NCBI GenBank assembly: GCA_025642065.1
Contig: JAODUP010000322.1
Span: 102,501 to 166,500, forward strand
Direction of reading: 5' to 3'
Length of the DNA stretch: 64,000 nucleotides
DNA from: Paralvinella palmiformis
Lineage: Eukaryota > Annelida > Polychaeta > Terebellida > Alvinellidae
The notes under the pieces were generated by a model. That model did no database searches. It worked only from the letters and a program-made list of their open reading frames with translations, and was not told the DNA's origin. This document shows positions 2,157-63,115 of this stretch, piece by piece. Position numbers and translations under genes: made by a program. The first letter of the stretch is position 1, and each line of letters begins with the position of its first letter.

Positions 2157-2658
2157 ATGGATATACGTCATCGATCCATGAGACTTTTGGTAACGGTAAC
2201 TGTCGCCTGTTACGTCAGCGCTAAGCCGAGCGAAGACAAACAGCCGGAAGCGATCCGTTTGCCGGGACACATCATTCTCGGCGGGCTGTTCCCGATGCAC
2301 GAGAAAGGCACGCGGGGCCGGATCTGCGGCGCCATCAAAGGAGGAGAAGGGCATCCAGCGGGCCGAGGCCATGCTCTACGCCATCGACAGGATCAACAAC
2401 GACAGCGCCATCCTGCCCAAGGTCACCCTCGGCGTCTACATCCTGGACACCTGTCTTCGGGATACCTTCGCCCTGGAGCAGTCGCTGACGTTCATCAGGG
2501 CCCACATGAGCTCGCTGACCGCCGAACAGTTCCTGCACTGTACGCCGAAACCGCGCTACGGGAAGAACCATGCCGTCATCAAGCCCGTCGCTGGAGTGAT
2601 AGGAGCCGCCGCTAGTCCGGTCTCTGTAATGGTAGCTAACATATTGAGATTGTTTAAG
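2157..2658 (+). CDS. Metabotropic glutamate receptor exon 1 (signal peptide and first part of lobe 1), with +1 frameshift
   Basis: Encodes the N-terminus of a class C GPCR. ATG at 2157 (aaaATGg context) starts a basic then hydrophobic signal peptide (residues 1-22, ending YVSA). The mGluR hallmark [15 protein letters not shown] follows, then ICGAIK. At 2337-2341 the frame slips: one extra base (G2340 or its neighbour) is present, and the reading resumes one base later as [20 protein letters not shown]. The rest is canonical: [36 protein letters not shown]. The donor AAG|GTAAGA at 2658/2659 leaves phase 0. Expected ligand contacts are visible: K64 and R68 (2359-2361; R78 in mGluR1, the K/R pair being typical of group III) and S153 (2614; S165 in mGluR1). 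Everything else is intact, so an assembly indel is likelier than a dead gene. Without correction the frame would continue to a stop near 2615. Confidence 0.9.
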
Positions 2659-32579: not shown

Positions 32580-33635
32580 GACACCCTGACCAGTCGACTA
32601 TATCTATCTGCAAGGAAGTAGAACAGGCAGCCATTATGCCGTAAACCGGTCCATGAGCGATAACGTCAAGTAACCTTTGTTAGACAGCTTGACGCCATTA
32701 ACAAAGATAACAGCTGGGGGCAGCGTTCAAAGGACAAAGAATCGCAATCAAAGCGCTCGACTGCCGTAAAGGCTTTTTGGGAGAGGCGAGTGCCAGCTTG
32801 GGACGATCCGTTCGTGAAATATGGCGTCCGCTTCTTTAGTGGCACGACTTTAAACTGGTCGAAAACGCCATCCACTCGGCAGGTTCACCCCCCGCAACAA
32901 CCGACTCATTAACGCGGAGCCAAATTTAATCACCGAGTAACGCGACACCGAGGCCAACCGGTTCACGATGCTACATGATTTATCAACTATAAATGGCCGC
33001 CGGTGATTTCGGTTATTTCGGCAGTCAACCGTTCGGAACCGGCGGCATTTCGTCCCAAGCGCTGACCCACACACGAACCACACCGGCCCGACTCCCAGCG
33101 GCCGCCGCAGCTGACCGGATTGGCTCGATAAGATTTCAGGAAATTATCATTTCTGCAAACCAGAATTCGAAAGTTGCCCGCTAAGATGGCTCAGTGCCGT
33201 CTGGAATTGTCGGAGTTATTGCCGGATTTGGCCATAGTGTGTGGCCATTCCTCTCTGTAGCGTGCTAGTTGGCCAACAACGCCTCCTGGTGGTGACTGAC
33301 GACGGCGTCTAGGCCAAGGTCTGGCCATTGGACTGATTTCCCCCATTCGTCGGTAGTTTGCAAGATGGCCGACAGATGGGGCTATTTCCCGTCGCCAAGA
33401 AGACCTTTATTATCGTAACCTTTGTGTTCGTCATCATACGGCGCAGCATGTTGGGTCCATTTTTTGGCCATAGGTCATAGATAATCTCGTCTGTGGTGGC
33501 GAAAAGTAGACACGGAATGGTCGACAATATGGGACGTTGTACGGTGCTTCTCTTCAGTTCTGTTCAGTGAACGTCTAATTAGCCACCGTACGACAACCAC
33601 CGTGACGTGTACGACACGGACGTGACGTAAGCAAC
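32580..33635. other. Unique CpG-rich DNA upstream of the alternative module; candidate second promoter
   Basis: About 1 kb of low-repeat, GC-richer sequence just before the ATG at 33636. Close to the start are two TGACGT motifs, one extended to TGACGTAA (33623-33630), which resembles a CRE/ATF site. There is no TATA box at a convincing distance. The change from microsatellite-rich to clean DNA exactly before a coding module is what suggests a promoter; this is inference. Confidence 0.35.
33623..33630. promoter_or_regulatory. CRE-like TGACGTAA before the alternative first exon
   Basis: Six bases upstream of the ATG, with another TGACGT at 33603-33608. This position would put it in the 5' UTR rather than a classical upstream promoter. 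Weak evidence. Confidence 0.2.
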
Positions 33636-34109
33636 ATGGCGCTCATCGCCGTCAGACCGTTCCTCTACGTCATTATGATGTCGGCCCACAACATGGCACT
33701 GTTTCGGCCGTCCAGGGATTTGGGTAGGAAGCAGGTGAAGCATCCCGGCGACTTCATGATCGAAGCCTGGATCGAGGTGCATCGCTGCGATCCGGACTGC
33801 AGCTCCCCGAAAATCAACCCGTCCGGATTGCAACAGTTGGAAGCGGTTTTCTACGCTCTGGACGTCATAAACGCGGATGGCGGCATTCTGCGGAATTGTT
33901 CGATTGGCTTCCAGTTGACGGATGCCATTAATCTGGAGACGCTCTGGTCCAGATTGCTACCGCTCCGGAATCAGAGCAAGCGGATACCGATACGGGATGA
34001 CGGTATCATCGGGATTATCGACGGCACACCGGAACCACGTGACATCGACAAGAAATGGCATTATCTCGGCGTAGCGGAATATATTGGCCGGAAGGCTTTT
34101 AACGTCCAG
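33636..34109 (+). CDS. Divergent mGluR-like N-terminal module (possible alternative exon 1)
   Basis: A 158-codon coding stretch that starts with ATG (aacATGg) and a moderately hydrophobic leader (residues 2-20) and ends at donor CAG|GTAAAT in phase 0. It aligns with exon 1 in order: HPGDFMIEAWIEVH against [34 protein letters not shown] against [29 protein letters not shown] against [10 protein letters not shown]. It is therefore a lobe 1 start of a class C receptor. Differences matter: the distal-carboxylate arginine (R78 of mGluR1) is Gln (33834-33836), the GPGSSS-type serine loop is replaced by a longer IIDGTPEPRD segment, ALEQS is lost and the cysteine pattern is changed. It lies on the same strand inside intron 1. 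It may be an alternative first exon, or the remnant of a duplicated paralogue. No frameshift or stop is present. Confidence 0.72.
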
Positions 34110-34978
34110 GTAAATTATGACTGGTTTGTTATCCTAAGCTTTATTGTGGGATGGGGGGGGGGGCTGGAATAGAAATTGTTTCCTCTCCTCGTACTCTCTA
34201 CAATTGTCATGTTCAAGTACCATAAATGAATTAAGGTATCACGCAGAAATAAAACCATGGACACGATAAATCCTATGTGTACCAATTTTCTTAAGGATGA
34301 TCGCTAATTTTGGATTTTGTTGTGCTTCAATTATTGTACTAGCTCAATAATTATGTCGTCTTCAGAATACACGCACACGCACATGCACACAGAGAGAGAG
34401 GGGGGGGTGAGGTATCCGCTATCTATCTATTGATGGTGCTATTATTCCCTGATCAGGCAAAACGTTCGATTATCAATTGGATTACATTTGATACAAAGGT
34501 ACAAAGGTAACACTACGGTGATATTTTCTTCGCTTAATATGCACTCGTTGGGGATTATGATTGACGTATTGTACAGACACCCCCCCCCCCCGTGCAATTA
34601 GATGACCTTTCTGCGCTGAGTATTATTAAACTTTACCTACAGACTAGCCGTATTTTGAATGTGTACTATGGTTTAAGCTTTAGGGGGCATTTTTTAACCA
34701 ATGGACTTTTGTAGCGTACAACATTCAGTTAAAATTATATATCTTTTTAACGGTCGGTTATGTAATCATTGTATCTGCGAGTAACAGTTTCGAGTATATA
34801 CCCGGCTTAGCTAGTATTTTATTGGCATCTGGAGAATCGTATTAAGAACGTGTACACAACACCTGGGAATAAGCCCACACCATGATTTAAGTCATTATCC
34901 CAGCCACACATCCATTATATGAAGATATTCCTTAAACTTTTCCTTCAAGACTAATCTAATTACCGTGTTAACCGGCAG
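34110..34978. other. Intron between the two alternative-module exons
   Basis: 869 bases, donor GTAAAT and acceptor ggcAG. Includes a G-run just after the donor (34151-34162), a (CA/GA) patch at 34372-34410 and a C-run at 34580-34590. No coding sequence seen. Confidence 0.45.
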
Positions 34979-35026
34979 GTGGCGTACGAAGCTGGCCTCA
35001 TTTTAGATCTTATCCAATCGTTCCAA
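34979..35026 (+). CDS. Likely second alternative mini-exon (16 codons) of the divergent module
   Basis: Acceptor accggcAG at 34978 and phase 0 continuity with 34109 give VAYEAGLILDLIQSFQ, followed by a weak donor (CAA|GTGAAC). Its end aligns with the end of canonical exon 1 ([11 protein letters not shown]), which in mGluRs immediately precedes IPQISYAS, the start of exon 2 at 49313. Joining 33636-34109 + 34979-35026 + exon 2 keeps the frame and gives a lobe 1 start of 174 codons against 167 in exon 1. The poor donor and short length make this tentative. The alternative is direct splicing of 34109 to 49313, which is also in phase. Confidence 0.45.
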
Positions 35027-35199
35027 GTGAACTATATGATAAACAATAGATCAATAGATAACAATGTTACTTTCAAATTGTCAGCACGTCACAAACCAAT
35101 CACTCAAACTCCGCCCCCTTCCCTCTGCCGCCCCCCGCTTGGGTTTAGATCATTTATTACGTGGTAGAGGTCGTTTTAATTTAATTTTAATCTATAGCA

Positions 35200-35282
35200 G
35201 AGAAGCTTTGGCTATTCGGTTTCGAACTCACAACCTGGAGGCTTGCAGCGCAGCGCTCTAACCATTCCGCCACCGGAAGCCC
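35200..35282 (-). mobile_element. tRNA-like SINE head (family B-related)
   Basis: ggctattcggtttcgaactc (inverted box B), caacctggaggcttgcagcg, cagcgctctaaccattccgc (inverted box A) and gccaccggaagc. A CT run and a GT/GC patch (35288-35355) follow. Confidence 0.55.
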
Positions 35283-35355
35283 CATATTGCTCTCTCTCTC
35301 TCTCCCTCTGCCTCCCTCCCTCTGTTGGCGTGTGCGTGCGCGCGCACGTGCGTGC

Positions 35356-38300
35356 TAGGACGATGTGTCGAATGCACGCGACTAAAATCCTCCGAGGCAG
35401 GGAAGGTTGCACTAGATTGCAGGCATTGAAACAAAACGATTTTAAATATTAAAATGTAACCACGAGCCGTCTTTAACCGATACTGTTACAACGGTTGCTG
35501 TAACCTTTATTTTGTTAATGTAATGAGTTGCTGGATAAAGTGAATTTAGATTGATTTAGGAACCATTCATGTCGACCAATCTACTTAATAAATGGCTTCG
35601 TACTTTTTACCAGGAAATAACGTTCTATTTAAACGACGAACAGTTGGGCGACGCCTCTCGTACTGTCCTTTGCGTACTTCATCCATCTGATCCATCCTCG
35701 TTATGTTGAATCGGCGAGATGTACCCGCTCCGTTGTTCGTTCGCTGATTAATTAATATCCCGGAAGTCTGTGAGATAGCAGTCAGCCATCCCCTCGCGAT
35801 AGTTCACCTGAGTTTGTCTTCTCAGGTAATGTATACAATCCAGTAACAGAGTACTCTCGAGTTACACGTTAGCGTCATCGGGTTACCTGCGGATCGCCAA
35901 CTTCTGTCTCGGCCTGTTCAGAGATTGAGAAATACGTGTTTGTCCATCCGGTTATTAATGATCCAGATCAAACACCAAATCGTTCCCTGCGTTATTAGTT
36001 CATCAGCGGCTCTAGCCGGTCTGACGGCTGTCTTTCGGGATAGCAGCCGCTGACGTGTACTCGGGAGACACTAATGATGACAAATCAGCAACAGATAAGC
36101 CACTGTCCACGAAGAGGGACGAAGTTGGCCATTTAATGCGGTGCAAGTTTATGATCCAGACCGACTTCAATTAACAACCACACCGACGGTAACTGCGATC
36201 GTCGGATTCGAAATGCGAAGTCCGGTTGTTTTACATCAACATCTCTCGACAATTTTCCTAAATCGGCCAAGAAGCCATGACAGACGAAACGCGCATAAAA
36301 GAACTCGATTATCAATCCCATCCATCAACGTTTTGTGCGTCGGTTTTTTTCCGATGGCCGACGTAGCAAACAAATGTAAACGGAAGCCACTCGACATTCA
36401 GTAGCAGTCCCGTGACATCGTCCATTGTAACTGCCATCCGCGTATAGGCGACGTGACGTCAAACGGCAATCGGCAACATTTCTAGTTTCCCTTCAGTTAC
36501 GTAACTATATTATTAATAATTAATAATTATGTTATCCGGGTGAAATGGCTTGTTTAGGAACACTTCGAAATTCCGCTTTCAAATCTCCGAACATTAACGT
36601 CGAATTGAAGCCAGTATTTGGTGAGTGTTCAACGTTGGTTCAACTTCTCGGGAGCATGGTGCAGGTCAATATGCCTCATTATCACCCGCTGCTAGTTAAC
36701 ATAAATTGAATACACAACGAGTACAGACATCAGGCGTTTTCCGTATTGACAGATGCCGGAGATGTTCTTTTGATGATTTCCAGGAGTGACAATAAATTAA
36801 TTATACATAGTTATTCAACAGACAATTATGAGTTAACTAAATCCGAACAACAAACGAAACAGGAACAGCATTAACTCAACATATTCATGGAACAATAGCT
36901 GGCGTCCAGCAGTCGGAGGGGGGGGAGAAGGAGCAGGAGCTGTTAATTCCCCGGAGCGGCTCCAATCAGTAGTGGGAAAACGGCATTAAATCAAACAGAC
37001 TCGGTTAGGACCGACGACAAACATTGGCCAACAATGTCAATTTAACCTTTCGGGAATTAACAGCTGCCCGTCATCGTTTGAGTGGCTCGATGACGGGCCG
37101 CTCGTCAAAGTCTCCCCATTCCAATCCGATCCTCCGCTAGGGCTGCTGAGGCCGGGGCAACCGTCTCACTCGTGGACATCGCGCAGTACGGAGGACGTTT
37201 CGGGTGGCGATTGGCGCCCAATAAGAAACCTTGGCTTTTCTTCTTCTCCCGATATCTCGATGGTCGTGTTCGTAATTTCGGCCACGATTGCCTACAAGTG
37301 TTCGCTCTTCTGGCCGAAGCTTATTTTCCACAAACGCCAATTGCACTCAGTGAAGCCGACCCGTCGGTGCTGTTGATGGTCGGGTCGCGGCGCCGAGGCT
37401 CTCGCATCGCGTCGGGTATTTCCGAAGACGGTTGGACGATCAGCCGAGATAATGTGCCCATCATTCGGCCGACTACTGTATGACTAATTAGCTTCGCAGA
37501 TGTATTCCGGGCGTGTGTTGTCTTTCTACTGAGAATCTTCCCCGGGACATCACGCCCCTGCCCTATCCCGACCCTCGGATATCGCTTCCTTTCTCCGAGC
37601 TAATCCAGACAATTGCTCAACCTTATCGGACATTGTGTTGATATTTCTGGAGTCGGGAACTGATCGAGGGGAAGGGGAGATGGTGTGGGGTACGATTATG
37701 TGTGTCCTCTTGCATTACTCTTTTGTGTATTTCGCTCTCTAGCAGTTGTCCTTTGTTTGCCCTGATTCCATGTGCATGCCCGATTACGGTTCTCAGTTCC
37801 ACCCAAAAGCGTCATCCTTACAATGGCGGCGAAGGTTACTGGGTCATGATGAAATTTTGTCCGGTGTTTAACTTCGCTGTGTGTTTCCAAATCTTAAGTA
37901 AATATCTCAAAGAGAAGGTCAACACCGATAAATGAACATTTGTCGGATGTCAAGAAGAAGTCTTTCATCTCTACAACGTTGTTTACCGACTCGTGAAACT
38001 CGCCATGGCTTAATAAGATCATCCTCTCCCTCCGCCCCTACATCAACCCCTCCCCCTCCCCCCATCTTAACCTGAACCGTTCATCAACGTGGTATCTTCC
38101 TCATTCAAATGTTGACGGCACGATAAACCTCCCATCGCTGTCCCTAAGCAATAATTCTTCCTTTGGGTTGCGAAAGACATTGTTATGTAAATAGCATAAA
38201 ATCGCCGCGTATCGGGCGCGGTTGCTTTATAGACAATATCCGGTTTTATCGCTCATCGCTGCAATACTGGAGCACTCTTTACGTCGTCCTCCCGACATCC

Positions 38301-38487
38301 CGGTGTCCGGATGGAAATCTCTGGCAACCACGTGGCTTCTCCGAACGAATGAACTCGCTGAGGAACAAAATACGGGTGTCCTAGTTGATAATGTTTCCTT
38401 TTTGGATCGTTTGCGTGTAGAAATGTTGTCATCAAGAACGGGGTCGGTCTTCTTAAATGAACTTGCGCCAAATGATGATGATGATGA
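35356..38487. other. Unique intronic DNA, largest low-repeat block of intron 1
   Basis: About 3 kb almost free of microsatellites, including a CRE palindrome TGACGTCA (36454-36461), a G-run near 36919 and C-rich sequence at 38030-38065. An open frame at 37172-37483 has no recognisable family. Low repeat content beside the alternative module makes it a reasonable place to look for conserved regulatory DNA. No element is demonstrated. Confidence 0.4.
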
Positions 38488-38645
38488 CGATTGATGTTTT
38501 ACGGCCACTTCTGTGCACATGGTAGGCTAAATTGGCCGAGCGACCTCCAAAGGTAATGAGACGAAGTGAAAGACGAAACAACCTTCAGATAGCACGGGGA
38601 TCGAACACATAAGGATCGAATCCACACCTACCGCAGACACACGGA
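38488..38645 (-). mobile_element. SINE family A with (GAT)n tail
   Basis: A (GAT)n run (38474-38490) leads into gatgttttacggccacttct, taggctaaattggccgagcg, aaaggtaatgagacgaagtg, gacgaaacaaccttcagata and a rearranged box B end (cacggggatcgaacacataa). The head is partly duplicated and truncated. Confidence 0.75.
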
Positions 38646-38814
38646 GGCCGCGCAATAATTATATTTACCCATTTGATCTAGATTAGACGATCGTGAGTTT
38701 AAGACATCAGAACAACATACAGACACTTCACAGCAAACATAAAAACACAATCCACACATACGTCACATTACTAATCACATAATCTATATTTATAATATAT
38801 ATATATATATATAT

Positions 38815-38859
<45 letters not shown>

Positions 38860-39424
38860 TTGAGAGGTGCCTTGAATAAAATGAGGAAATCATATATAAG
38901 AAACTAATCTAATGCCCACGACCATTACCTCATCCAAACTGAACAGAGGAACCAAGATGTGAGGATAATTTTACTAATCCTACAATTGTGATTCGGTTCT
39001 TACAGTTTTTAGTTAAAATAAACGACATAGATCCTGAATGTGTCCTAACCTTGACTAGGGACTAATCACATAACACCTTCTAACCACTCGGGCTGAAGCT
39101 ATCCGACCGGAAGTAGACCAGCGTGGCTCTGTCACGAAGTTATAATTTCCTGTCCCACTTTGAGCAATGTGTATCAAATGTGAGCGCCATCTCTGTCCAG
39201 ATTGGTATTAGCCAACGACACCACGAAGCAATTAGGTGTCATCCCCAATACAGCATTTTCTTTCCGGAAAATCACGTTGTCATGGTCACTTGATCCAGTA
39301 AATTTCACTACGTTTTAGCAGAATTTTGGTTGGACGGTTGAGATCACCTGCGAAAACTATCTCCTGGTGTAACATGTAGTGAGTGATTAAACGAAGTTTA
39401 GAAAGGGCTTCTTTTTGTGGCTCC
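38646..39424. other. Intronic sequence with (TA)n (GA)n
   Basis: (TA)n at 38796-38816 followed by (GA)n at 38818-38856. Otherwise unique and non-coding. Confidence 0.5.
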
Positions 39425-39515
39425 TTTTGGCGGAACAACCTGCAAAGGTAATGAGCCGAAATGAAGAATGAAACACCCATATATGTGGCCAACCCTATTA
39501 CCAGTTAGGCTATGA
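39425..39515 (-). mobile_element. SINE family A fragment
   Basis: cggaacaacctgcaaaggta, atgagccgaaatgaagaatg, aaacaccc, then a direct jump to gtggccaaccctattaccag and ttaggctatg. The box B part is deleted. Confidence 0.6.
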
Positions 39516-39602
39516 AAACTTGCCGTTAGAGATATATTATTATGTATTAATTTACGAATTATTTACTTAGTTAAAATCGGTTTTTCTGTGACCTAATTAG
39601 AT

Positions 39603-39799
39603 AATGATGATTTATGTTTTACGGGCACTTTTGTGCACATGTTAGGCTAAATGGGCCGAGTTACCTCCAAAGGTAATGAAGCGAAGTGAAAGACGAAACA
39701 ACCTTCAGATATGCCCACGCCGGGATTCGAACACGGGTGGTAGTGATCTGTGGTCCAACACCAACACGCTACCCGTTAGACCACGGAGGCGCCCCTTGG
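39603..39799 (-). mobile_element. SINE family A, full length, 11-bp target-site duplication
   Basis: Best conserved copy. Flanked by cctaattagat on both sides (39592-39602 and 39800-39810). Landmarks: atgttttacgggcacttttg, ttaggctaaatgggccgagt, gacgaaacaaccttcagata, cgggattcgaacacgggtgg (inverted box B), gctacccgttagaccacgga (inverted box A) and a terminal ggcgcc. The exact duplication suggests it is younger than the others. Confidence 0.9.
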
Positions 39800-39810
39800 C
39801 CTAATTAGAT

Positions 39811-40475
39811 GAACGGTTAGCTGCAAATCTGTGGGATCCTGGTTCTAATCCCGACAATTCAGTTTCGCGCTTCGTATCATAACCCTTGATGGTAATTTAC
39901 CTTATGCACACAACTGGTTGAAAACTTTTACGTTTCACATTTCTCAATCGACATCCGGTTTAAATCACGCTCACCAAAAATAACCTGGCTGGTGAAAAGA
40001 GGCTTTTCGTGAAGAATGACAAAGAAACCGAAAATTAATATTAAAAAAGAAGTATTCCAGAAGCCTGACGAGCTCATGCCAAATTTCCTTACGCCATGGC
40101 AGTACCCCATATTAAACATATTGGGAGGTGGTGACACGTGCCATTTCAGAAGGAATGCGCCGTTCCTGTGAAGTAACTGCGACTTGGCTTAGGGCGCTTC
40201 AATGTCCTGAATGTCGTTCCATCAAACAAAACTGAATGCGGAATGTTAATAAAATAAAATTCGCTTTGCGCTAATATTTTAGATCCGGGCTCCGTTTTTG
40301 GGATTCAGGTGTTTGGTCAGATGGCGTCAATATTATAATATCAGCGGCCGTTAGGTAATATTATAAGATCTTGTTAACAACATTTACTGCACTGATATTT
40401 CAGATAAATAATGCTATTTTGTTTCTCCGTTTACTGTTATCGTTATTGTTATTATAGATAAGGTAACTGCTAATC

Positions 40476-40477
<2 letters not shown>
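39811..40477. other. Unique intronic sequence
   Basis: AT-rich, non-coding. No element recognised. Confidence 0.4.
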
Positions 40478-40531
<54 letters not shown>

Positions 40532-40682
40532 TACTACTACTACCAAAAATAACACCTACTACTCATCATCAGTATTATCGTCATCATCGTGAACATCATC
40601 ATCATCATGTTGCTGACGACGACGACGACGATGATGACGATAATGATGATGATGATGATGATGATGATGCTGATGATGATGC

Positions 40683-40729
<47 letters not shown>

Positions 40730-40732
40730 GCA
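40478..40732. repeat. (ATT)n, (ACT)n and (GAT)n trinucleotide cluster
   Basis: Perfect ATT at 40478-40530, short ACT, then GAC/GAT units at 40615-40730. Open frames across it are low-complexity products of the repeat. Confidence 0.9.
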
Positions 40733-40892
40733 ATACTCGAGTATTACTATCATTAGTAACAACAGTATTGTCAGGTAGTCTGTCTCTAACAATGGATGAC
40801 TTATATAATAGACATAATTGGCTTCTGGCAGCCAAAGATCAGCCTTAACGTTAGTCTTCTTTGTGCTATATAAGGGCCGGGGAGAAGGAGAC

Positions 40893-40901
40893 ACACACAC
40901 A

Positions 40902-40952
<51 letters not shown>

Positions 40953-40977
40953 TAGACAGAGAGAGATAGATAGATAG

Positions 40978-41035
<58 letters not shown>

Positions 41036-41310
41036 CAGAAGTCAACATAATGGAACTGTGGCCAGACTTGAAGACTGATTATAATGATGCTGTCGGTATT
41101 AGATATTGGCAGCTAATGGCTAATGGCTGGCCTCCGTGTTTAAAGATAAACACGCACACACACGCACCTACGTACGACACACAAACAGACACATACATAC
41201 ATACACACACACAACACACACACAGAAACAGACATATATACACCCACAGGGAGAGTGAGAGAGAGAGAGAGAGAGACACTCACACACTCACGCACACGCA
41301 CAAACATACG

Positions 41311-41380
<70 letters not shown>
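40893..41380. repeat. Compound (CA)n, (GA)n, (TA)n cluster
   Basis: (GA)n at 40903-41030 broken by GATA units, CA-rich at 41153-41230, GA at 41250-41276, CA, then TA at 41316-41348 and GA at 41349-41378. Confidence 0.9.
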
Positions 41381-41507
41381 CACACATATACATATAATTT
41401 TTATATTTAGATTGAAGTAAATGTAATTGTATTTGTGTTTAGATTTATGGAGGTATAAGTTTCAAAGGATGTTTAGATGTTGATATTCTAAGCCAGTGTC
41501 ACTGTGT

Positions 41508-41508
41508 G

Positions 41509-41546
<38 letters not shown>

Positions 41547-41590
41547 AGTGTGTGTTTATCAAATTGTGTGTGTGTGTTTTGGGGGACACT

Positions 41591-41627
<37 letters not shown>

Positions 41628-41628
41628 C
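41508..41628. repeat. (TA)n (GT)n and (CA)n inverted pair
   Basis: TA/GT run at 41508-41548, GT at 41563-41578, then a CA run at 41596-41627. The GT and CA arms are complementary with a short spacer and could form a hairpin. Confidence 0.9.
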
Positions 41629-42215
41629 GTCAGACAATGGGACAGAGATACCCAATCATTTCGTCAGTGATGTATTACCTTTGTTACCAGTTATTATCCT
41701 CCGTGTCCATCCTCGGCGATGAATGATGTTTATGTAATTCCTACTCGAGTGTCCCGGGTACTCTCGACTAATAACGACACTAATGCTATATTAGTGCTGT
41801 GGCGAGCGTTAACGTTAGCGCTAACAACGTCGGGCGATTGCCCTGTTGCCCGTGGTGTGGTGGTGTTCCTCTGTCGCCCACATCACGAGGGATCGGTCTG
41901 GAGATTCTTCCTCAAAGACAAAATATCTCTGGCAGGAACTAAGTCGAGATTTTCCCTGTGTTTTGTAGACATGGCGGGCGTTTTATCATTTTGTCAGCTC
42001 ACCAGTAAAAGAATCTGTTCATTTTGTGAAATTAGCTCAGCTCGGGGGTGGAGGGGGGGGGATTTCCTCTGGGCCAGATGGCACCAATCCTGGGCGTCTC
42101 TTTTTAGAGCTAATTCCGAATTGTCGATTTACTCACTCTGATCCGAAGATGTGTTTCCATTGCACGAACATTGGGTTATAGCTGATTGAGTCTGGAAGGG
42201 TGAATTATCCCTGGT
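41629..42215. other. Unique intronic sequence
   Basis: An open frame of 140 codons at 41719-42141 shows no family signature or splice context. Regarded as non-coding. Confidence 0.4.
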
Positions 42216-42358
42216 TCACAGCCGCCTTATTTGGGCACGGTGGACAAAATGGCACGAGCGTTATCATCCAAATGAAATATCCTTCTGACTTCGCCTCACT
42301 CGGTTTTGAACCAGGCAGCTATAAGTCAATGGCCAACCGCGCTACCCGTCAATCGTAC
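42216..42358 (-). mobile_element. SINE family A, degenerate
   Basis: gccttatttgggcacggtgg, aatgaaatatccttctgact, actcggttttgaaccaggca (inverted box B) and ggccaaccgcgctacccgtc (inverted box A). Confidence 0.6.
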
Positions 42359-42427
42359 ATTAAATACATACCCCTATTACCCAGAGGTTAAGGGATATAT
42401 ATTGATACACAGCCCATTTATACATCT

Positions 42428-42617
42428 GTGAGTGAGTGAGTGAGTGAGTGAGTGAGTGAGTGAGTGAGTGAGTGAGTGAGTGAGTGAGTGAGTGAGTGAG
42501 TGAGTGAGTGAGTGAGTGAGTGAGTGAGTGAGTGAGTGAGTGAGTGAGTGAGTGAGTGAGTGAGTGAGTGAGTGTGGAGTGAGTGAGTGGTGAGTGAGTG
42601 AGTGAGTGAGTGAGTGA
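42428..42617. repeat. Long (GAGT)n tetranucleotide array
   Basis: About 190 bases, nearly perfect, with two one-base slips near 42573-42592. On the minus strand it reads as repeated Thr-His-Ser-Leu in an open frame, which is a repeat artefact. The unit matches the family B SINE tail. Confidence 0.95.
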
Positions 42618-42879
42618 TATAGGGAGAAGGGTAGCGATTGGTGGTTTATGAGGTAACGGTTGGCAGTTAAGGGCGAAAGCCTTCCGGGGTGAATTATACA
42701 GGTCCAGACATCGGTATATCGCCTCAGTTCTGACCACATCTTAAAATATATTAATAAAACTGTAAAGATGTAACATACGTAATGGATCCAGAGACGACGT
42801 GGATCGGTCTGATACTGGATACATCTTACACTAAAAAAGACGTGTAATTAGTAGTGTACAGTAGGTGAAATACCTCTGG
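42618..42879. other. Unique intronic sequence
   Basis: Nothing recognised. Confidence 0.4.
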
Positions 42880-43000
42880 TACCTCGGTTCAAATACCCGC
42901 TTGGCTAAATCTGAAGGATGTTTCATGTTACACCACTTCACCTGATTACATTTGGAATTCATTCTATCCATTTACTTTGTAGGAAAAACGCAGTTATATA
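42880..43000 (+). mobile_element. SINE family A fragment (3' two-thirds)
   Basis: Starts inside box B (cggttcaaatacccgcttgg), then gaaggatgtttcatgttaca, ccacttcacctgattacatt and tggaattcattctatccatt. The head is missing. Confidence 0.6.
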
Positions 43001-43194
43001 AATCTTCACCTTATGATAGATAATACTCTTAAAATAAGAATCAGATAAATTCTATATATAAATCCTGCTATTAATCAAATAAGCAACATAGTGCCCACAG
43101 TTAAACACATAAATGATTACATTTGTGAGTGTTTAGTCCCCGCACTACTTATAATCTGTCGATCGGACTCACGATTGTTATATAAACACCTTCC

Positions 43195-43745
43195 CTTCTC
43201 TGACAATTCGACTACAGCAGCGAGTGCAAAACTCGTAACCTGCACTCTTAAAAGATAATGTATAACGGGGGGGGGGGGGTTCTATCTGTACTGGCTTCTT
43301 GTATCTTTGAAATCGCTGTACCAAATCCTGTTTCACACATCCAGAAAGTACTAAGTGGGATGGCACCACAGTATCTAGCTGATCTATAGTACGGATATAT
43401 ATGCCAGTCAGACTGGTGCCATCTGGATCTCGTTCACGCCTGAAGGTGCTAAAACGTCGCACAGAAATGTACGCCGAGAGAAATCTTTTCGAGCCTCAGC
43501 TCTTAAGCTCTGGAATGAATTGCCTCATCGCGTCATACAAGCATCAAGCCAGACGATATTTCGAGAGGTTATTAAAATCCACTTTTTAAATTATCCTGTT
43601 TGATATAATCTATATTACCGTAAATGTCTGTTTATGTATAAAATATGTTCTACTTTATGAGCTGGAATACGTTTGAATTATGTCTACATCGTAAAGCTCC
43701 ATAGAGCAACTCATATTAATTAAGGTACCATGCGAAATATTATTA
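43195..43745 (+). mobile_element. Decayed CR1/L2-like LINE 3' end
   Basis: Begins with cagcagcgagtgcaaaactc (the LQRVQN region), is interrupted by a poly-G run of 13 at 43267, then encodes RLVPSGSRSRLKVLKRRTEM and a frameshifted LWNELP-type segment (ctggaatgaattgcctcatc). The terminal KSTF stop is at about 43589. The 3' UTR (gagcaactcatattaattaa) parallels the copies at 5215 and 25805. Confidence 0.75.
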
Positions 43746-44495
43746 CTAGTTTATTAATAGTTATTGCATGCCGTGTACACGGAGCGGCCACGAGACGGCG
43801 ACATTTCACATTTCTGCGCATCACCGAATTACAGTTGAAATGTATAGGCCAGCACTTGTGAGACAAATCTCGGTTTTTTTTTTGTTTTTTGTCATTTCTT
43901 TCAATTTTTCCGAATATCCGAGGCAGCTTTGAAACAACTGACTAATGTACACCAGGGAGTGCCCTGGTCAGCGTCTTTTTAGATAAGTTAGTACATTATT
44001 GTTATGTGAATACCAGGAGAGAAGGCTGTCACGCGCGGTACAACCGTTGACAACATGCCATCATTTATCTCATCACGGGCAGGCTTTCCTCATCGGTACA
44101 CATTTGCCAAACTCCTCCTCAACTGACTCGGCGTTGCTAATGATCCGTCTCTCGGTGCAAGGTCTGTCGCCTCATGACCCCAGACTTATACATTATTTAG
44201 CGACATCTATTGGCAGATGGTGTCGTCTGTACTGGATTCAGCCGAAAGTTTCTTTTCGTAGTATTTGCAGTGTGTGTGTGTTGGGGGAGGGGGGGGGGGT
44301 TGCCAACCGATACTTAACTCAAAGATTGTCGTGTGTTGACTTGAGAAGGAGACGTTGTTAAGTCTTAATTTAGCTGCTTTACTATTTAAATTGAAAACAG
44401 GAATAAATCCGATTCGTCAGATAAGGGACATCGGTTTTTAAAATCACAAGCACGCGCGCACGCACACACATACAAACACACACTTACATACATAT

Positions 44496-44530
<35 letters not shown>

Positions 44531-45640
44531 CTTTCCTCCTTTTTTGTAATTTGATTTTCCTTATATTATTTTCCTTCTAATAAGTATATTTAAAGCATGT
44601 TAGCTTTTAGATAATTACTTTTAATAGTACTACGAATGAAACCAAGGCGACCACCACCACAACAACAACAATAACAACAATAACAATAACGATAATAACA
44701 ATGATGACGATGATGATGACCACTACCACCACCACTACAATAACAACAACTGGTACTACTACTACTACAAAGGCAATAAAAACCAGAACTATTAATAAAT
44801 AACATTAACAACAACAACAATAATAATAATAATAATAGTTATTATTATTATTATTATTATTATTACACTTCTATAGCTGAAGCTAACGGAATACATTAAT
44901 TTAGCTATAATGGAAAATGTATTTATATTTTGTCAAAGCAAGCCATAATATAATCGACAATATTGAGATGTTGCGTTAGCTGTCATATCAAAATATCGAT
45001 TTAAAAAGCAAAATTATCGGGGGTTGTTTGGAAATTGACAACTTACCGACATCATCAACTGATGCTGATGTTGATCACCTAAGTGCACCAGAAATGGGAT
45101 GTCGCCGAAATAAAAATCTATTTGCACGTTTTTGAATCATCGAACAAATACTTCGTCGACGCGTATCGGCGTAATAACAGACAATTCGTCGAAAACGATT
45201 TCCTCCCGCCAGCCTCCTTTTATTTCGAAGCCCCATCTGCCATGTTCTGTCAACGCTCTGCTTTCGCAGCTGTTCTAGCTGCCATCGCAGCTGTTCCGGA
45301 TGCTGGTAGCGTCGTATCGGCGCTAAACCATTTCATATTTCCAGTTATCGGCGCTTGTCTCGTGGCCCGGTGTCATATTTCAACTTCCGGTGACCAAAAA
45401 TCACGCCGACCGTAATAATTGCTGATGTATGGGGTAAGGAAACGACGCCGTAGGCGAGTGTTGTCTCGCCGAATCGTACCCTAGCGGGTGGCTGGATAGT
45501 TGCTGTGGTCACGTGACCCGTTCCCACAGTTGCTGGCTAAAATGGCGACTTCTGACGTCACTAAATGTGTGGCTGAATTTTAGCTGACGGAATTACAGTC
45601 GAGTTGCGTTTGGATCAGAAGTACACTGAACGGATGTTGT
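43746..45640. other. Intronic sequence with scattered simple repeats
   Basis: G-run at 44285-44300, CA/TA at 44455-44530, AAC/ACT/ATT trinucleotides at 44655-44865, CRE palindrome TGACGTCA at 45553-45560. The frame at 45083-45415 (110 codons, Ala-rich) has no recognisable family. Confidence 0.4.
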
Positions 45641-45727
45641 TTTTGTTTGTTTGTTTGTTTGTTTGTTTGTTTGTTTGTTTGTTTGTTTGTTTGTTTGTTT
45701 GTTTGTTTGTTTGTTTGTTTGTTTGTT
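45641..45727. repeat. (GTTT)n tetranucleotide array
   Basis: About 21 perfect GTTT units. Confidence 0.95.
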
Positions 45728-45869
45728 GATTGTGTAGATTATGTAGACCACCGATCAATTAATATTAGGACAGTTTATCGTGAATCTACAAAGAGAAATC
45801 TCCTACAATATTAGCCTGAAGATTATAAACATGTGTTATATCTATTCGTTTGTCCTTGTATTTAATTGT

Positions 45870-45964
45870 ACTACTACTACTACTACTAGTACTATTACTA
45901 CTATTACTACTACTAATACTCTCATCGTCATTATCATCATCATCATCATCATCATCACCATCAC

Positions 45965-46033
<69 letters not shown>

Positions 46034-46096
46034 TTACTTCTACTATTACTACTCCTACCACTACTACCAGTACTACTACTACTACCACATCATCAT

Positions 46097-46127
<31 letters not shown>

Positions 46128-46141
46128 ATCATCATCATCTA

Positions 46142-46193
<52 letters not shown>

Positions 46194-46327
46194 ATCATCA
46201 TCATCATCATCTACTACTACTACTACTACTACTACATCATCATCATCTTACTACTACTACTACTACTACTACTACTACCTACTATCTACTACTACTACTA
46301 CTACTACTGCTACTACATCATCATCAT

Positions 46328-46360
<33 letters not shown>

Positions 46361-46458
46361 TATCATCATCATCTTACTACTACTACTACTACTGCTACTA
46401 CATCAATATACTACTACTCACAATATCTTCTACTACTACTACTACTATCCATCATCAT

Positions 46459-46495
<37 letters not shown>

Positions 46496-46689
46496 ATCAT
46501 CATCATCTTCTACTACTACTACTACTACTACTACATCATCATCATCTACTACTACTACTACTGCTACTACATCATGTTCTTCTACTACTACTACTACTAC
46601 TACTACATCCATCATATCTACTACTACTACTACTACTGCTACTACATCATCATCTACTACTACTACTACTACTACTACTACATCATCAT

Positions 46690-46720
<31 letters not shown>

Positions 46721-46889
46721 ATCATCATCTACTACTACTACTACTACTACTACATACTCATCATCTTCTACTACTACTACTACTACTGCTACTACATCAT
46801 CATCATCTACTACTACTACTACTACTACTACTACTCTATACATCATCTATCTACTACTACTACTACTACTACTGCTACTACATCATCTT

Positions 46890-46923
<34 letters not shown>

Positions 46924-47150
46924 ATCATCATCATCTTCTACTACTACTACTACTACTACTACTACATCATCATCTACTACTACTACTACTACTACACTCA
47001 TCATCTTCTACTACTACTACTACTACTGCTACTACATCATCTTCTACTACACTACTACTACTACTACATCATCATCATATTCTACTACTACTACTACTAC
47101 TACATCATCATCTACTACGACTACTACTACTACTACATCATCATCATATT

Positions 47151-47185
<35 letters not shown>

Positions 47186-47561
47186 GCTACTGCTGTTACT
47201 GTCGTGTCTGCTGCTGCTGCTGCTGCTGCTGCTGCTACCACGACTATTTGTACTGCCACTGCTGCTGCTGCTGCTGCTGCTTCTGCTACTACATCATCTT
47301 CTTCTACTACTACTACTACATCATCATCATCTTCTACTACTACTACTACTGCTACTACATCATCTTCTACTACTACTTCTACTACTACTACTACTACTAC
47401 ATCATCTACTACTACTACTACTACTGCTACTACATCATCATCTACTACTACTACTACTACTACTACTACATCATCATCATCTTCTACTACTACTACTACT
47501 ACTACTGCTACTACATCATCTTCTACTGCTGCTGCTGCTGCTGCTGCATCATCATCAACTA

Positions 47562-47592
<31 letters not shown>

Positions 47593-47644
47593 CTGCTGTG
47601 CTCTCTGCTGCCTACACAACTGTCTGTCTTATCTGGTCATCTGC

Positions 47645-47675
<31 letters not shown>

Positions 47676-48395
47676 GTACTGGCGTCTGCTGCTGCTGCTG
47701 CTGCTGTGTCGTTCTCTACTCGTGCTGCTGCCTCTAAGGGCCTGCTACTAATGCTACATCTTACTTGTGCATATCATCATCCCTTCTGTTCTGCTGCTGC
47801 TGCTGCTGCTCATCACATCATCATCTGCTGTTTTGCTGCTGCTGCGCATACTTCTTGTACGCTGCTGTCTGCTGCTGCGTACGCTTCTGCTAGCTTCGAA
47901 CTCTGCTGCTGCTCTGCTGCTGCTAGCTGCTACTGTGTTGCTGAAGCTAAATGCATGCTGCTCGCTGCTGCTGCGCTCATCATGTCTGCTACTGCTGACT
48001 CGCTGACTGCTGCTGCTGCATCATCATCGTTTCTGCTGCTGTACTGCTGCTGCATCTCGCGTTCTGCTGCTGCTCGTGCTGCTGCTGCATCGTCAGTCTT
48101 CGTGCTGCTGCTGCTGCTGCTGCTGCTGTGCTCTGCTGCTGCTGTACTGCTGCTGCTGCTCTGCTTCTGCTGCTAGCTGCTGCTGCTGCTGACGCATCTT
48201 CGTGCTGTGCTGCTGCTGCTGTCTCTACTGCTCCTACTCTGTACTACACTCATCATCACTTCTACTACTACTACTGCTACTACATCATCATCTACTACGA
48301 CTACTACTACTACTACATCATCATCATATTCTACTACTACTACTACTACTACATCATCATCTACTACTACTACTACTACTGCTACTACATCATCT

Positions 48396-48427
<32 letters not shown>

Positions 48428-48828
48428 GCTACTACATCATCATCTACTACTACTACTACTACTACTACTACTCTGCTACTACATCATCTTCTTCTACTAC
48501 TACTACTACATCATCATCATCTTCTACTACTACTACTACTGCTACTACATCATCTTCTGACTGCTCTTCTACTACTATCTACAGTGTCACACTACTCTAC
48601 TACTACATCATCATCTACTACTACTACTACTACTACTACTACATCATCATCATCTTCTACTACTACTACTACTGCTACTACATCATCTTCTACTACTACT
48701 ACTACTACTACTACTACATCATCATCTTCTTCTTCTACTACTACTACTACTGCTACTACATCATCATCTACTACTACTACTATCTACTACTGCTACTACA
48801 TCATCATCTACTACTACTACTACATCTA
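45870..48828. repeat. Giant 3-kb interlaced trinucleotide array (ACT/ATC/CTG)
   Basis: Nearly 3 kb built almost wholly from three trinucleotides. A left (ATC)n block (45930-46033) is followed by many cassettes of a CTA run, a single CTG, two CTA and a CATCATCAT run (46085-47190). The right part is dominated by CTG (47195-47283, 47526-48220), with non-repeat words such as ctgtctgtcttatctggtca. Cassettes return at 48255-48828. A block with the word tactacgactactac and catcatcatcatattctact occurs at about 47107-47155 and again at 48290-48335, so the array was rebuilt by segmental duplication. All three frames stay open for hundreds of codons because the unit is three bases long; this is not a gene. 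It ends about 480 bases before exon 2. Confidence 0.93.
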
Positions 48829-49558
<730 letters not shown>

Positions 49559-56092: not shown

Positions 56093-56380
56093 GTATATGC
56101 GTGGCGAAGTCTCTGGAAATACCGCGAGAGCCGACAAATGACACCTTTTCAGACATCATCACCGTGCTGGCGGACAACGGGAAGGCCAAGGTGGTGGTGT
56201 TGTTCGTGAACGAGGACAACTGCCAGAAACTAGTGAAGGCTTCGCTGGAGAAAGGCCACAACAACGATCTTTATTGGCTGGCCTCGGATAGCTGGGGCGC
56301 CAAGGAGGTACCAGTCAGGGGCCAGGAATTGGCCGCTGAGGGAACAGTCACCATACTGCCACAAAGAGAGGTTGTTAAAG
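56093..56380 (+). CDS. mGluR exon 3 (lobe 2)
   Basis: 288 bases, phase 1 at both ends. Reads ICVAKSLEIPREPTND, FSDIITVLADNGKAKVVVLF, NDLYWLASDSWGAKEVPV and AAEGTVTILPQREVVK. The ASD-W motif carries the ligand ammonium-binding aspartate (D305, 56287-56289; D318 in mGluR1). The next residue is Ser (56290) where most mGluRs have Gly (SDGW), a change beside the pocket. Acceptor ttttccAG, donor GTCAGC. The frame is open upstream of the acceptor (an ATG at 55960), but the splice site and homology start at 56093. Confidence 0.93.
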
Positions 56381-57060: not shown

Positions 57061-57550
<490 letters not shown>

Positions 57551-57745
57551 GCTTAGAAAAATTGACGTATCCCGGATATCAACAGGAAGGCATCGTACCA
57601 TTTGTCATAGATGCTGTTTACGCCATGGCACATGCGCTTCACAACATGATGGTGAAGGAGTGTGGTGGTCATACTATATGTAAGGCGATGGAGCCGCCTA
57701 GTGGACTAAAGCTTCTACAATACATACGTAATGTAACATTCACAG
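57551..57745 (+). CDS. mGluR exon 5, distal-carboxylate lysine replaced by isoleucine
   Basis: 195 bases, phase 1-1. Reads [20 protein letters not shown] then [20 protein letters not shown] and a final NVTFT (N-glycosylation site). The motif corresponds to [19 protein letters not shown] of group III receptors. The lysine three residues before FVI (K409 in mGluR1, K377 in mGluR2) contacts the side-chain carboxylate of glutamate in family structures. Here that position is Ile392 (ATC, 57592-57594). The surrounding residues are well conserved, so this is a specific change, not decay. Acceptor tgttttgtAG, donor GTTAGT. Confidence 0.93.
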
Positions 57746-57885: not shown

Positions 57886-58012
57886 GTGTGGCCGGTCAGA
57901 CCATTAAGTTTAACAAAAATGGTGACGCCATGGGCCGGTATACTATTTACCAGTTTCAAAGAAGACCAAATGGACGATTTGAATATGTTCCGATAGGAAA
58001 CTGGTCTGATAC
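57886..58012 (+). CDS. mGluR exon 6
   Basis: 127 bases, phase 1 to phase 2. Reads GVAGQTIKFNKNGDAMGRYT then IYQFQRRPNGRFEYVPIGNW and SD. The F-NGDA-GRY block is standard for mGluRs just before the cysteine-rich domain. NWS is a possible glycosylation site. Acceptor catttctAG, donor GTAAGT, a perfect consensus. It is preceded by a 140-bp intron with an (ACAG)n run (57807-57836). Confidence 0.93.
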
Positions 58013-60169: not shown

Positions 60170-60285
60170 TATCACCATCATCATCATTATATTCATCATC
60201 GTTATTTATTATTATTATTATTATTATTATCATCATTAGCATCATCATCATCACCACCACCACCATCATCATCATCATCATGTAG
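60170..60285. repeat. (ATC)n, (ATT)n and (ACC)n trinucleotide cluster
   Basis: ATC/ATT/ACC units abut the 3' end of the minus-strand LINE relic, consistent with its tail. Confidence 0.85.
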
Positions 60286-61745
60286 TAGTCGTAATAGTAG
60301 GGTGGCTGTTTAAAATCGGAACTGGAATACCTGTTTGAGAGGTAACTCCTTCATCATCATCATCTTCAGCCATGATCAGTCCACTGCAGGACAAAAGCCT
60401 AGCACGTTGCCTCCAAAGTTCTCGGTTTCTTCTTCTCATGTACCAGTTCACATTGCCCCAGTACTGTTGTAGTTCATCTCTCCAAATGTTTCGTTGCCTT
60501 CCTCGGTTTATTTTGTCACCCATGGGTGAGCAAACTGTCAGTGCTGCACTCCGTCTATTATCCATTCAGCGGCTGATGTGACCCGTACATTCCACAATGT
60601 CCATAACTTTAGTTTGGTCCGTCACCCACTTGTTTGTTTTCCGGTCTTTATAAGGGATGTTGGGCATGTTATGTTCCATGTTGTGTTGTGCTGCAGACAA
60701 TTTCGTTTCCATTTTTGTTGTTAATGTCCAGGTCTCTGCTCCATATGTCATGGCTGGAAGGATGTAATGGTCGAAGGCTTTACTTTTTAAGCATGTTGGT
60801 AGTGTATCCTTCATAATTGTGCTGTGTCTTCCAAATGCCCGTCATCCTGCTTTGATCCTTCTTCTTATTTCGCTGTCTTGGTTTTTCCCTGTTAATGTAA
60901 AAGGTTCGCCTAGGTAAACATACTCTTCTACTTGATCAAGTTGGATTCCATTTACATATACTGCCTTGGTTGTTCTTGTGGTTCCTGCCATAATCTTTGT
61001 TTTTCTCATGTTCATTTTCAGTCCACATTTCTTGCTTGGGTTGACCAGCTCTTGAAGCGTTACTTCAACGTCCTTTACAGCGTGAGCTATTATTATAATA
61101 TCATCTGCAAATCGTAGATGGTTGAGTTTCTCTCCATTAATATTGATACCCTTTATTGTCCAGTCTTAGTCCTAAAGATTTTCTCCAAGCAGGCTATTAA
61201 TAACTTTGGTAAGATCGCGTTTCCTTGTCGGACCCCCTTTTTATCTTTATTTTGTTGCTATCTTTGTGCAGACAAACTGTTGTGGAATTATCTGTTCCTG
61301 CAGTGCTTCTAGAACCGAATCAGTTTCCGCAGAATCAAAAGCTTTCTCGTAATCCACAAATGCCACGCTGAGTGGTATGTTGCGTTCCAGACAGTTTTCC
61401 TTTGGCTGGTTTATTGTATGAATGTGGTCGATGGTTGAAAAACGTCTACTTAATCCGGCTTGTTCCTTTGACTGGATGATGTCTGGGACACTTTCCAGTC
61501 TGTTGAAAATTACTTTACTAAAGAGTTTGTAGATGTTGGAGAGCAGACTGATCGTTGTATCTTGTTTTATCCCCTTATGTATGATTATCTTATTTGTTTC
61601 TTCCCATTGTTGTGGAACTTTTCACCCTCTGTAGGCATGCTGAGGATAGTTTTGCAAGTTCTTTGTTGATTACATTATTTCAATCTTTGATTGTATCACT
61701 GAAGATGTTATCTGACCCTGGAGCTTTTCGTCTAGCATGTGGTTT
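60280..61745 (-). mobile_element. Decayed RTE-like non-LTR retrotransposon (reverse-transcriptase region)
   Basis: Read on the minus strand from right to left. It retains RT block A (FVDYEKAFDS region near 61340), a GVRQG-type block near 61225, the catalytic FADD (61100-61111) in NHLRFADDIIIIAHAVKDVE, then LGEPFTLTGK and the post-RT region HYILPAMTYGAETWTLTTKM (about 60720-60780). It ends with RGRQRNIWRDELQQYWGNVN and NRELWRQRA (60400-60500), the standard C-terminus of such proteins. Stops and frameshifts split it into several frames, so it is inactive. No endonuclease domain is seen (5' truncated). It lies antisense to the host gene. Confidence 0.85.
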
Positions 61746-62181: not shown

Positions 62182-63115
62182 ATTAGCAATAGATGTCTCG
62201 TTAACGAAATGGAAGCCATCACACCTGATTGTACCGAAGTCTGTATGCAGCGAGCCGTGTCCGCCGGGTCACATGAAGCGTAACGACGACGCCCTGGACA
62301 AGTGCTGCTGGGTGTGCATCCGGTGCGGACGACACATGATCCTGAAGGATGAGAACACGTGCGAGCCGTGTCCGAATGGTACCTATCCGGATCTATCGCA
62401 GACCGTCTGCAAGCCGCTCCCCGTCGACTACATGACATTCGACAGCATATGGGCGATCGTTCCGGTCGTGATGGCCTCTGTCGGGATCCTGTCGACCATC
62501 TTCATCGCGGCCGTCTTCATCAAGTTCAACAACACTCCGGTCATCATGGCCTCGGGTCGGGAACTCTGTTACGTCCTGATGATCGGGCTGTTGCTCAGCT
62601 ATCTGATGACCTTCGTCATGGTGGCCAAGCCGACCGTAGCCACCTGCTGCCTGACCCGTGTCGGGCTCGGATTATCTCTCTCGATGTGCTACGCGGCCCT
62701 GTTCACGAAGACGAACCGGATCTCGCGCATCTTCAACCGGGGGGTCAAGGCCATGGTGAAGCGGCCGAGCTACACGAGTCCACGGTCGCAGCTGGTGATC
62801 TGCTCCTGTCTGGTCGCCGTCCAGATCATCGCCGCCATCACGTGGGTCGGCATGGATCTGCCGGACACGGCGCTGGTATATCCGGATCGCCGGACAGTCG
62901 TACTGCGCTGCAAGAGTACCAACGTCGCCATCGTACTGTCTCTACTCTATAACATGATACTGATTACGCTCTGCACGGTGTACGCCTTCAAGACTCGAAA
63001 GATCCCGGAGAACTTCAACGAGGCGAAGCACATAGCGTTTACCATGTACTCTACGTGTATTGTGTGGCTAGCGTTCATTCCCATCTATTTCGGGACGAAC
63101 AAAAGCGATTTTAGG
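62182..63115 (+). CDS. mGluR exon 7 (cysteine-rich domain and TM1-TM6)
   Basis: 934 bases, phase 2 to phase 0. Starts LAIDVSLTKWKP. The cysteine-rich domain has all nine cysteines (VCSEPC, KCCWVC, RC, TCEPC, VC). TM1 starts near WAIVPVVMASVG, TM2 ELCYVLMIGLLLSY, TM3 CCLTRVGLGLSLSMCYAALF, TM4 SQLVICSCLVAVQIIAAITW, TM5 NVAIVLSLLYNMILITLCTV, TM6 FTMYSTCIVWLAFIPIYFGT. The TM3 and loop-2 cysteines are present. Intracellular loop 3 reads FKTRKIPENFNEAKHIAF, nearly invariant in mGluRs and part of the G-protein contact. Donor AGG|GTAAGT follows SDFR. Other mGluRs continue there with TM7, absent from the window. Confidence 0.95.

Follow-up and report, generated by a model that had tools for sequence, protein, structure and literature searches.

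A divergent lobe-1 module in the first intron of a Paralvinella palmiformis mGluR gene is a candidate alternative first exon

Results

An mGluR gene with a second lobe-1 module in intron 1

The window, the whole stretch of 64,000 nucleotides of Paralvinella palmiformis contig JAODUP010000322.1 that was analysed, carries seven mapped exons of a metabotropic glutamate receptor (mGluR) gene, whose introns are all flanked by AG and GT; the gene extends past the mapped part (Table 1). Exons 2-7 join in an open frame. Exon 1 contains, by eye and relative to homologs, an extra base at about 2338-2344, and its assembled frame stops at residue 153; the base could be either an assembly error or a real allele. 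Among 120 listed matches to the first 250 residues of the gene, the best identity was that of a Capitella teleta protein (70% over 88% of the query); by E-value a Polyodon GRM2 protein (52% identity), which has an internal repeat, came first. In this Polyodon spathula protein part of the ligand domain appears, by eye, twice in succession, which is probably an annotation error. Two further features of the window were seen by eye, a three-kilobase near-triplet repeat array with long open frames in several frames at 45747-48855 of intron 1, and minus-strand ORFs at 60278-61621 that resemble pieces of a non-LTR reverse transcriptase. Rfam gave 0 matches over the window at gathering cut-offs.

A second module resembling the start of lobe 1 lies within intron 1. 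A recheck bore out its coordinates, plus strand, open frame, GT donor and phase 0, all of which had been proposed in an earlier sequence-only reading. The module begins at an ATG in the context AGCAACATGG, a strong or good start context, and ends at a strong donor that matches 8 of 9 consensus positions. Simple repeats aside, only one frame in the ORF lists is longer than its stop-to-stop frame, 33606-34172 (188 aa), which runs for 20 codons past the donor to a stop at 34170-34172. By eye, the leader lacks classical signal peptide features. Cysteines occur in the module at residues 51, 55 and 88 only, and in the gene's own exon 1 at 18, 57, 99 and 128.

Table 1. Mapped and candidate exons, in window coordinates
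Feature	Position	Strand	Remarks
Canonical mGluR exon 1	2157..2658	+	Leader and lobe-1 start; donor AAG/GTAAGA
Module, candidate alternative first coding exon	33636..34109	+	Leader and divergent lobe-1 start; 158 codons; donor CAG/GTAAAT; phase 0
Candidate mini-exon VAYEAGLILDLIQSFQ	34979..35026	+	16 codons; acceptor AG; donor CAA/GTGAAC; phase 0
mGluR exon 2 (IPQISYAST...)	49313..49529	+	Phase-0 acceptor; ANF_receptor E 9e-24
mGluR exon 3, ligand domain	56093..56380	+	Profile scan, joined frame
mGluR exon 4, ligand domain	57083..57208	+	Profile scan, joined frame
mGluR exon 5, ligand domain	57551..57745	+	Profile scan, joined frame
mGluR exon 6, ligand domain	57886..58012	+	Profile scan, joined frame
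mGluR exon 7, nine-cysteine domain and most of seven-helix core	62182..63115	+	PF07562 E 3e-15; PF00003 E 2e-67

Homology of the module to mGluR lobe 1

A profile of 24 ligand domains, from which the module was excluded, was scanned against six frames of the window (2790 translated segments). The matches comprised eight segments of the seven mGluR exons, with exon 1 found in two frames, and the module at 42 bits (E 4.5e-12); the next unexplained segment scored 2.2 bits. The best PDB match of the module was mGluR7 (E 5e-4), and profile-profile comparison with lobe 1 gave an E-value of 1.2e-12 and a probability of 98%. The profile score and the mGluR7 match, taken with the coding score described below, mark the module as more than a chance open frame. 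The sequence-only reading had aligned the module in order with the lobe start of exon 1. This homology is firm for residues about 27-102, though Pfam's own ANF_receptor model misses the module and a Pfam search with it returned no match at E<=1, but the GIIG match that had been proposed in the tail was placed differently by different aligners. Residues about 103-158 align poorly, which we count against use of the module as an alternative first exon. The tail, where the serine-bearing loop and the helix before IPQISY would be expected, aligns unreliably.

The module is a distant member of the family, with 23-31% identity to 25 aligned mGluRs and a branch of 6.7 substitutions per site in the tree, versus 0.63 for exon 1; its placement had 30% support and was unresolved. 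A database of 5.77 billion proteins, animal mGluRs included, was searched with the module joined to the rest of the receptor (759 aa) or to part of exon 2 (237 aa), and no relative of the module was found among 365 and 98 candidates. The canonical N-terminal region, by contrast, gave 2443 matches at E<=1e-5. How much this absence says is limited, because the database seems to have no near kin of the canonical exons either: 70% was the best identity among their 120 listed matches. In the genome assembly (594 Mb, 2597 contigs) canonical exon 1 matches 17 places, with the module 16th of the 17 at 22 bits. A search that skipped very common words found no second DNA copy of the module, and a mobile element was therefore rejected as its source. 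A recent tandem copy of exon 1 was rejected as well, because the two are only 29-33% identical and the module has better matches in several other receptors.

Coding signal

Codon usage was scored with a model trained on 17 exon stretches from in-genome relatives, 8140 codons that had been chosen for being open. The module reached 44 bits in frame, or 0.28 per codon, similar to most true exons. Its other plus frames scored -9 and -4 and its antisense frames +23, +30 and -23, and the two positive antisense values are a point against the alternative-first-exon reading. The score is informative and not infallible, as six pieces of true exons span -0.03 to 0.44 per codon. Along the window, coding score peaked at 46.5 bits over 162 codons at the module and was higher only in true exons and in the repeat array at 45.7-48.9 kb; once true exons with their antisense, and simple repeats, are set aside, no other stretch exceeded 19.5 bits. 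A 35-codon block of the module was also compared with seven in-genome relatives, own exon 1 included. Over 245 codon pairs, codon positions 1, 2 and 3 matched at 0.48, 0.59 and 0.35, and the third position being the least conserved is the pattern expected if the protein was selected. Judged on its sequence, the module is an exon of the lobe-1 family that codes for protein or did so until recently.

The in-frame partner of the module

When the module is joined to exons 2-7, the frame stays open for 787 aa, and for 803 aa if the 16-codon stretch is included. It had been claimed that either end, 34109 or 35026, joins exon 2 at 49313 in frame, as exon 1 does. Both joins do keep the frame; the comparison with exon 1 fails as assembled, owing to the extra base and the stop at residue 153. 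The module has its own start codon, a donor, a phase matching that of exon 2 and an open joined frame.

We found no other gene in the window that could receive the module. Apart from the module, every ligand-domain exon that the six-frame profile scan detected belongs to the mGluR, and none lies between 35026 and 49313. None of 10 ORFs, nine on the plus strand at 35-46 kb and the module's own, had a Pfam domain above cut-off. Across the genome, where only the best candidates were scored, ANF_receptor gave 79 matches, and the four on the module's contig are all exons of the host mGluR. Exon 2 was the only in-frame partner found for the module in the window.

The genome-wide matches also included three loci of unusual layout. 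At L022:2-7045 (C1953) four ANF_receptor ORFs are followed by 7tm_3, and at L010:2011-7609 (C666) about three tandem ligand domains lie ahead of one seven-helix core; if each locus is one gene, both are multi-flytrap class C receptors. At a third locus, L011:4593-6290 (C1731), one exon encodes the greater part of an mGluR ligand domain, and no 7tm_3 is among the matches listed for its contig, which could reflect a missed core, a split assembly or a receptor that lacks a core.

The module lies on the same strand as the mGluR and in its first intron, with its own start and a matching phase, and the window yielded no other acceptor gene; an alternative N-terminus therefore fits best. Besides the poorly aligning residues and the antisense scores, points against it are the missing Pfam match and database relatives, the long branch, the loss of the D-T-C cysteine, the weak case for the mini-exon and the leader that lacks classical signal features. 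We judge it an even call, on this sequence evidence, that the sole mGluR gene of the window uses the module as an alternative first exon. The CpG profile was rejected as evidence for a promoter. The window median ratio was 1.03; the stretches preceding the module and exon 1 share a ratio of 1.22, and higher values occur in many places.

A candidate mini-exon and the direct join

The sequence-only reading had taken the 16-codon stretch at 34979-35026 as the continuation of the module. Its segment LILDLIQSFQ resembles the helix before IPQISY. Its acceptor is weak, with 9 pyrimidines among the 16 bases before it, and its donor matches 6 of 9 consensus positions. Intron 1 holds 199 open phase-0 AG-GT stretches of 12-25 codons, nine of them, the mini-exon included, before 35100. 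The mini-exon ranked first of the 199 in an ungapped test, and its score was reached by only 2 of 572 upstream and 2 of 1169 minus-strand control stretches; however, 70% of 200 Markov-shuffled introns held a stretch as good. Global alignment anchored on the module tail again placed it first of 199 (3.4 versus 3.0 for the runner-up), and none of 500 sampled control stretches did as well. The third test, by hhalign, did not favour it, as 186 of the 199 stretches, the mini-exon itself included, scored at least as well. That score hardly discriminates, given that among the controls 514 of the 572 upstream stretches and 367 of 400 sampled from the minus strand were also at least as good. Open frames and profile coordinates suggest that one in-genome relative (C2224) has an intron at the spot of the mini-exon and that in another (C743) the intron lies somewhat earlier in the lobe.

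The proposed continuation is thus the best of the 199 stretches in two tests, while equally good stretches are common in shuffled introns. The module may instead join the mGluR directly, 34109 to 49313, with the mini-exon a product of chance, a variant that is compatible with use of the module as an alternative first exon. The shuffled introns, the weak acceptor, the donor at 6 of 9 positions and the indifferent hhalign result speak for the direct join. The tail-anchored ranking, the rarity of comparable control stretches in the ungapped test, its being one of nine candidates before 35100 and the apparent intron position in the C2224 relative speak against it, and we consider the direct join possible though on the doubtful side.

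A possible relic exon or separate product

The module could also be a relic: a lobe-1 exon was copied, the copy diverged and stayed behind in the intron, and it has now gone out of use or is decaying. Its very long branch, the lack of relatives in the protein database, the lost cysteines and arginine (see below) and the poorly alignable last third would all suit such a copy. Set against this, the 158 codons are open from a good start context to a strong donor, the codon score is like that of real exons and third codon positions are the least conserved; one would expect stops in so divergent a copy after a long period of free drift. We regard a relic as unlikely.

A separate product that uses no mGluR exons, from a nested gene or as a short lobe-1-like protein terminating within intron 1, seems improbable to us: truncated mGluR-like proteins that lack the seven-helix core do exist, as described for SmGBP of Schistosoma (PMC3206071), and the module frame does reach a stop 20 codons past the donor, but that donor is strong, no other ligand-domain exon and no Pfam domain above cut-off (nine plus-strand ORFs) was found between 35026 and 49313, and part of a lobe would be unlikely to fold alone.

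Key residues of the glutamate site

In solved mGluRs, the arginine of the G-[IL]-[QH]-R motif contacts glutamate, and the cysteine of D-T-C together with that of the long loop stabilises lobe 1 and the dimer. The module reads GLQQ where the gene's own exon 1 has GIQR and mGluR7 has GIHR, so that glutamine replaces the lobe-1 arginine. It lacks both the D-T-C cysteine and the long-loop cysteine, with no cysteine aligned at either place. A glycosylation sequon, NCS (ILRNCS), is present where several homologs carry NIT, NVT or NIS, a point in favour of the alternative-first-exon reading. The arginine is absent from some in-genome class C relatives as well (L013, L014, L010 and C2224) and is kept in others (L015 and L011), and its loss is therefore compatible with a receptor of the class C superfamily.

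Since the conserved lobe-1 arginine and cysteines are missing, a glutamate-insensitive or retuned receptor appears likelier than a second glutamate receptor, and we infer that a receptor carrying the module would have a changed or empty glutamate site. With the arginine absent, the different halves of the ligand cleft that were proposed for the two forms may mean that glutamate binding was lost, and not that a second specificity was gained.

Discussion

The alternative N-terminus put forward by the sequence-only reading remains the best fit to the anatomy of the locus, with the qualification that its different half of the ligand cleft may instead amount to loss of glutamate binding. Under this reading, transcription would begin ahead of 33636 from a promoter within intron 1, and a phase-0 splice would connect 33636-34109 with exon 2, either directly or by way of the mini-exon. 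The resulting isoform would have the first part of lobe 1 swapped and would keep everything from exon 2 onward, namely the rest of the ligand domain, the cysteine-rich domain and the seven-helix core. It would most likely be glutamate-insensitive or retuned to another ligand, and in dimers with the canonical receptor it may play a silent or modulatory part. Tentatively, and with somewhat less than even confidence, we propose that the choice of first exon lets one mGluR gene make two receptors in which the start of lobe 1 is different, the second having a cleft that lacks the lobe-1 glutamate contacts and that senses something else or belongs to a ligand-blind dimer partner.

The specificity of class C receptors is thought to evolve mainly by gene duplication. 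If the proposal is true, a receptor gene could, by choosing a first exon that swaps part of the ligand cleft, gain new specificities or built-in silent dimer partners at little cost, and the ligand cleft of a class C GPCR would be assembled combinatorially.

The host gene is itself a member of the group II/III metabotropic glutamate receptors, its 120 listed matches carrying such names as mGluR 2, 3, 4, 6, 7 and 8-like. The module differs from this group, being only 23-31% identical to the 25 aligned receptors and having lost key residues. Among the papers listed in searches on alternative N-termini and first exons, which covered few subscription papers, titles and abstract openings pointed to no mGluR with an alternative ligand-binding half. 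A phylogeny of metazoan mGluRs adds a class IV, and the words 'splice' and 'isoform' are absent from its main text (PMC6307864).

Two known systems come near to the arrangement proposed here. SmGBP of Schistosoma mansoni is a truncated, membrane-associated mGluR-like protein and, like the module, an invertebrate mGluR-type ligand domain in an unusual form. SmGBP differs in that it binds glutamate and has a flytrap module in which a glutamate site is predicted, whereas the Paralvinella module is part of one lobe (PMC3206071). In the class C GPCR gene GABBR1, alternative promoter usage and splicing give GABAB1a and GABAB1b different N-termini (PMC12314290). The likeness is that one class C gene has alternative N-termini, which for Paralvinella are proposed from sequence. 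The two systems differ in what is exchanged: in GABAB1a/b two sushi domains vary and the orthosteric site is unchanged (PMC12314290), whereas in the Paralvinella receptor the exchange would affect part of lobe 1 itself.
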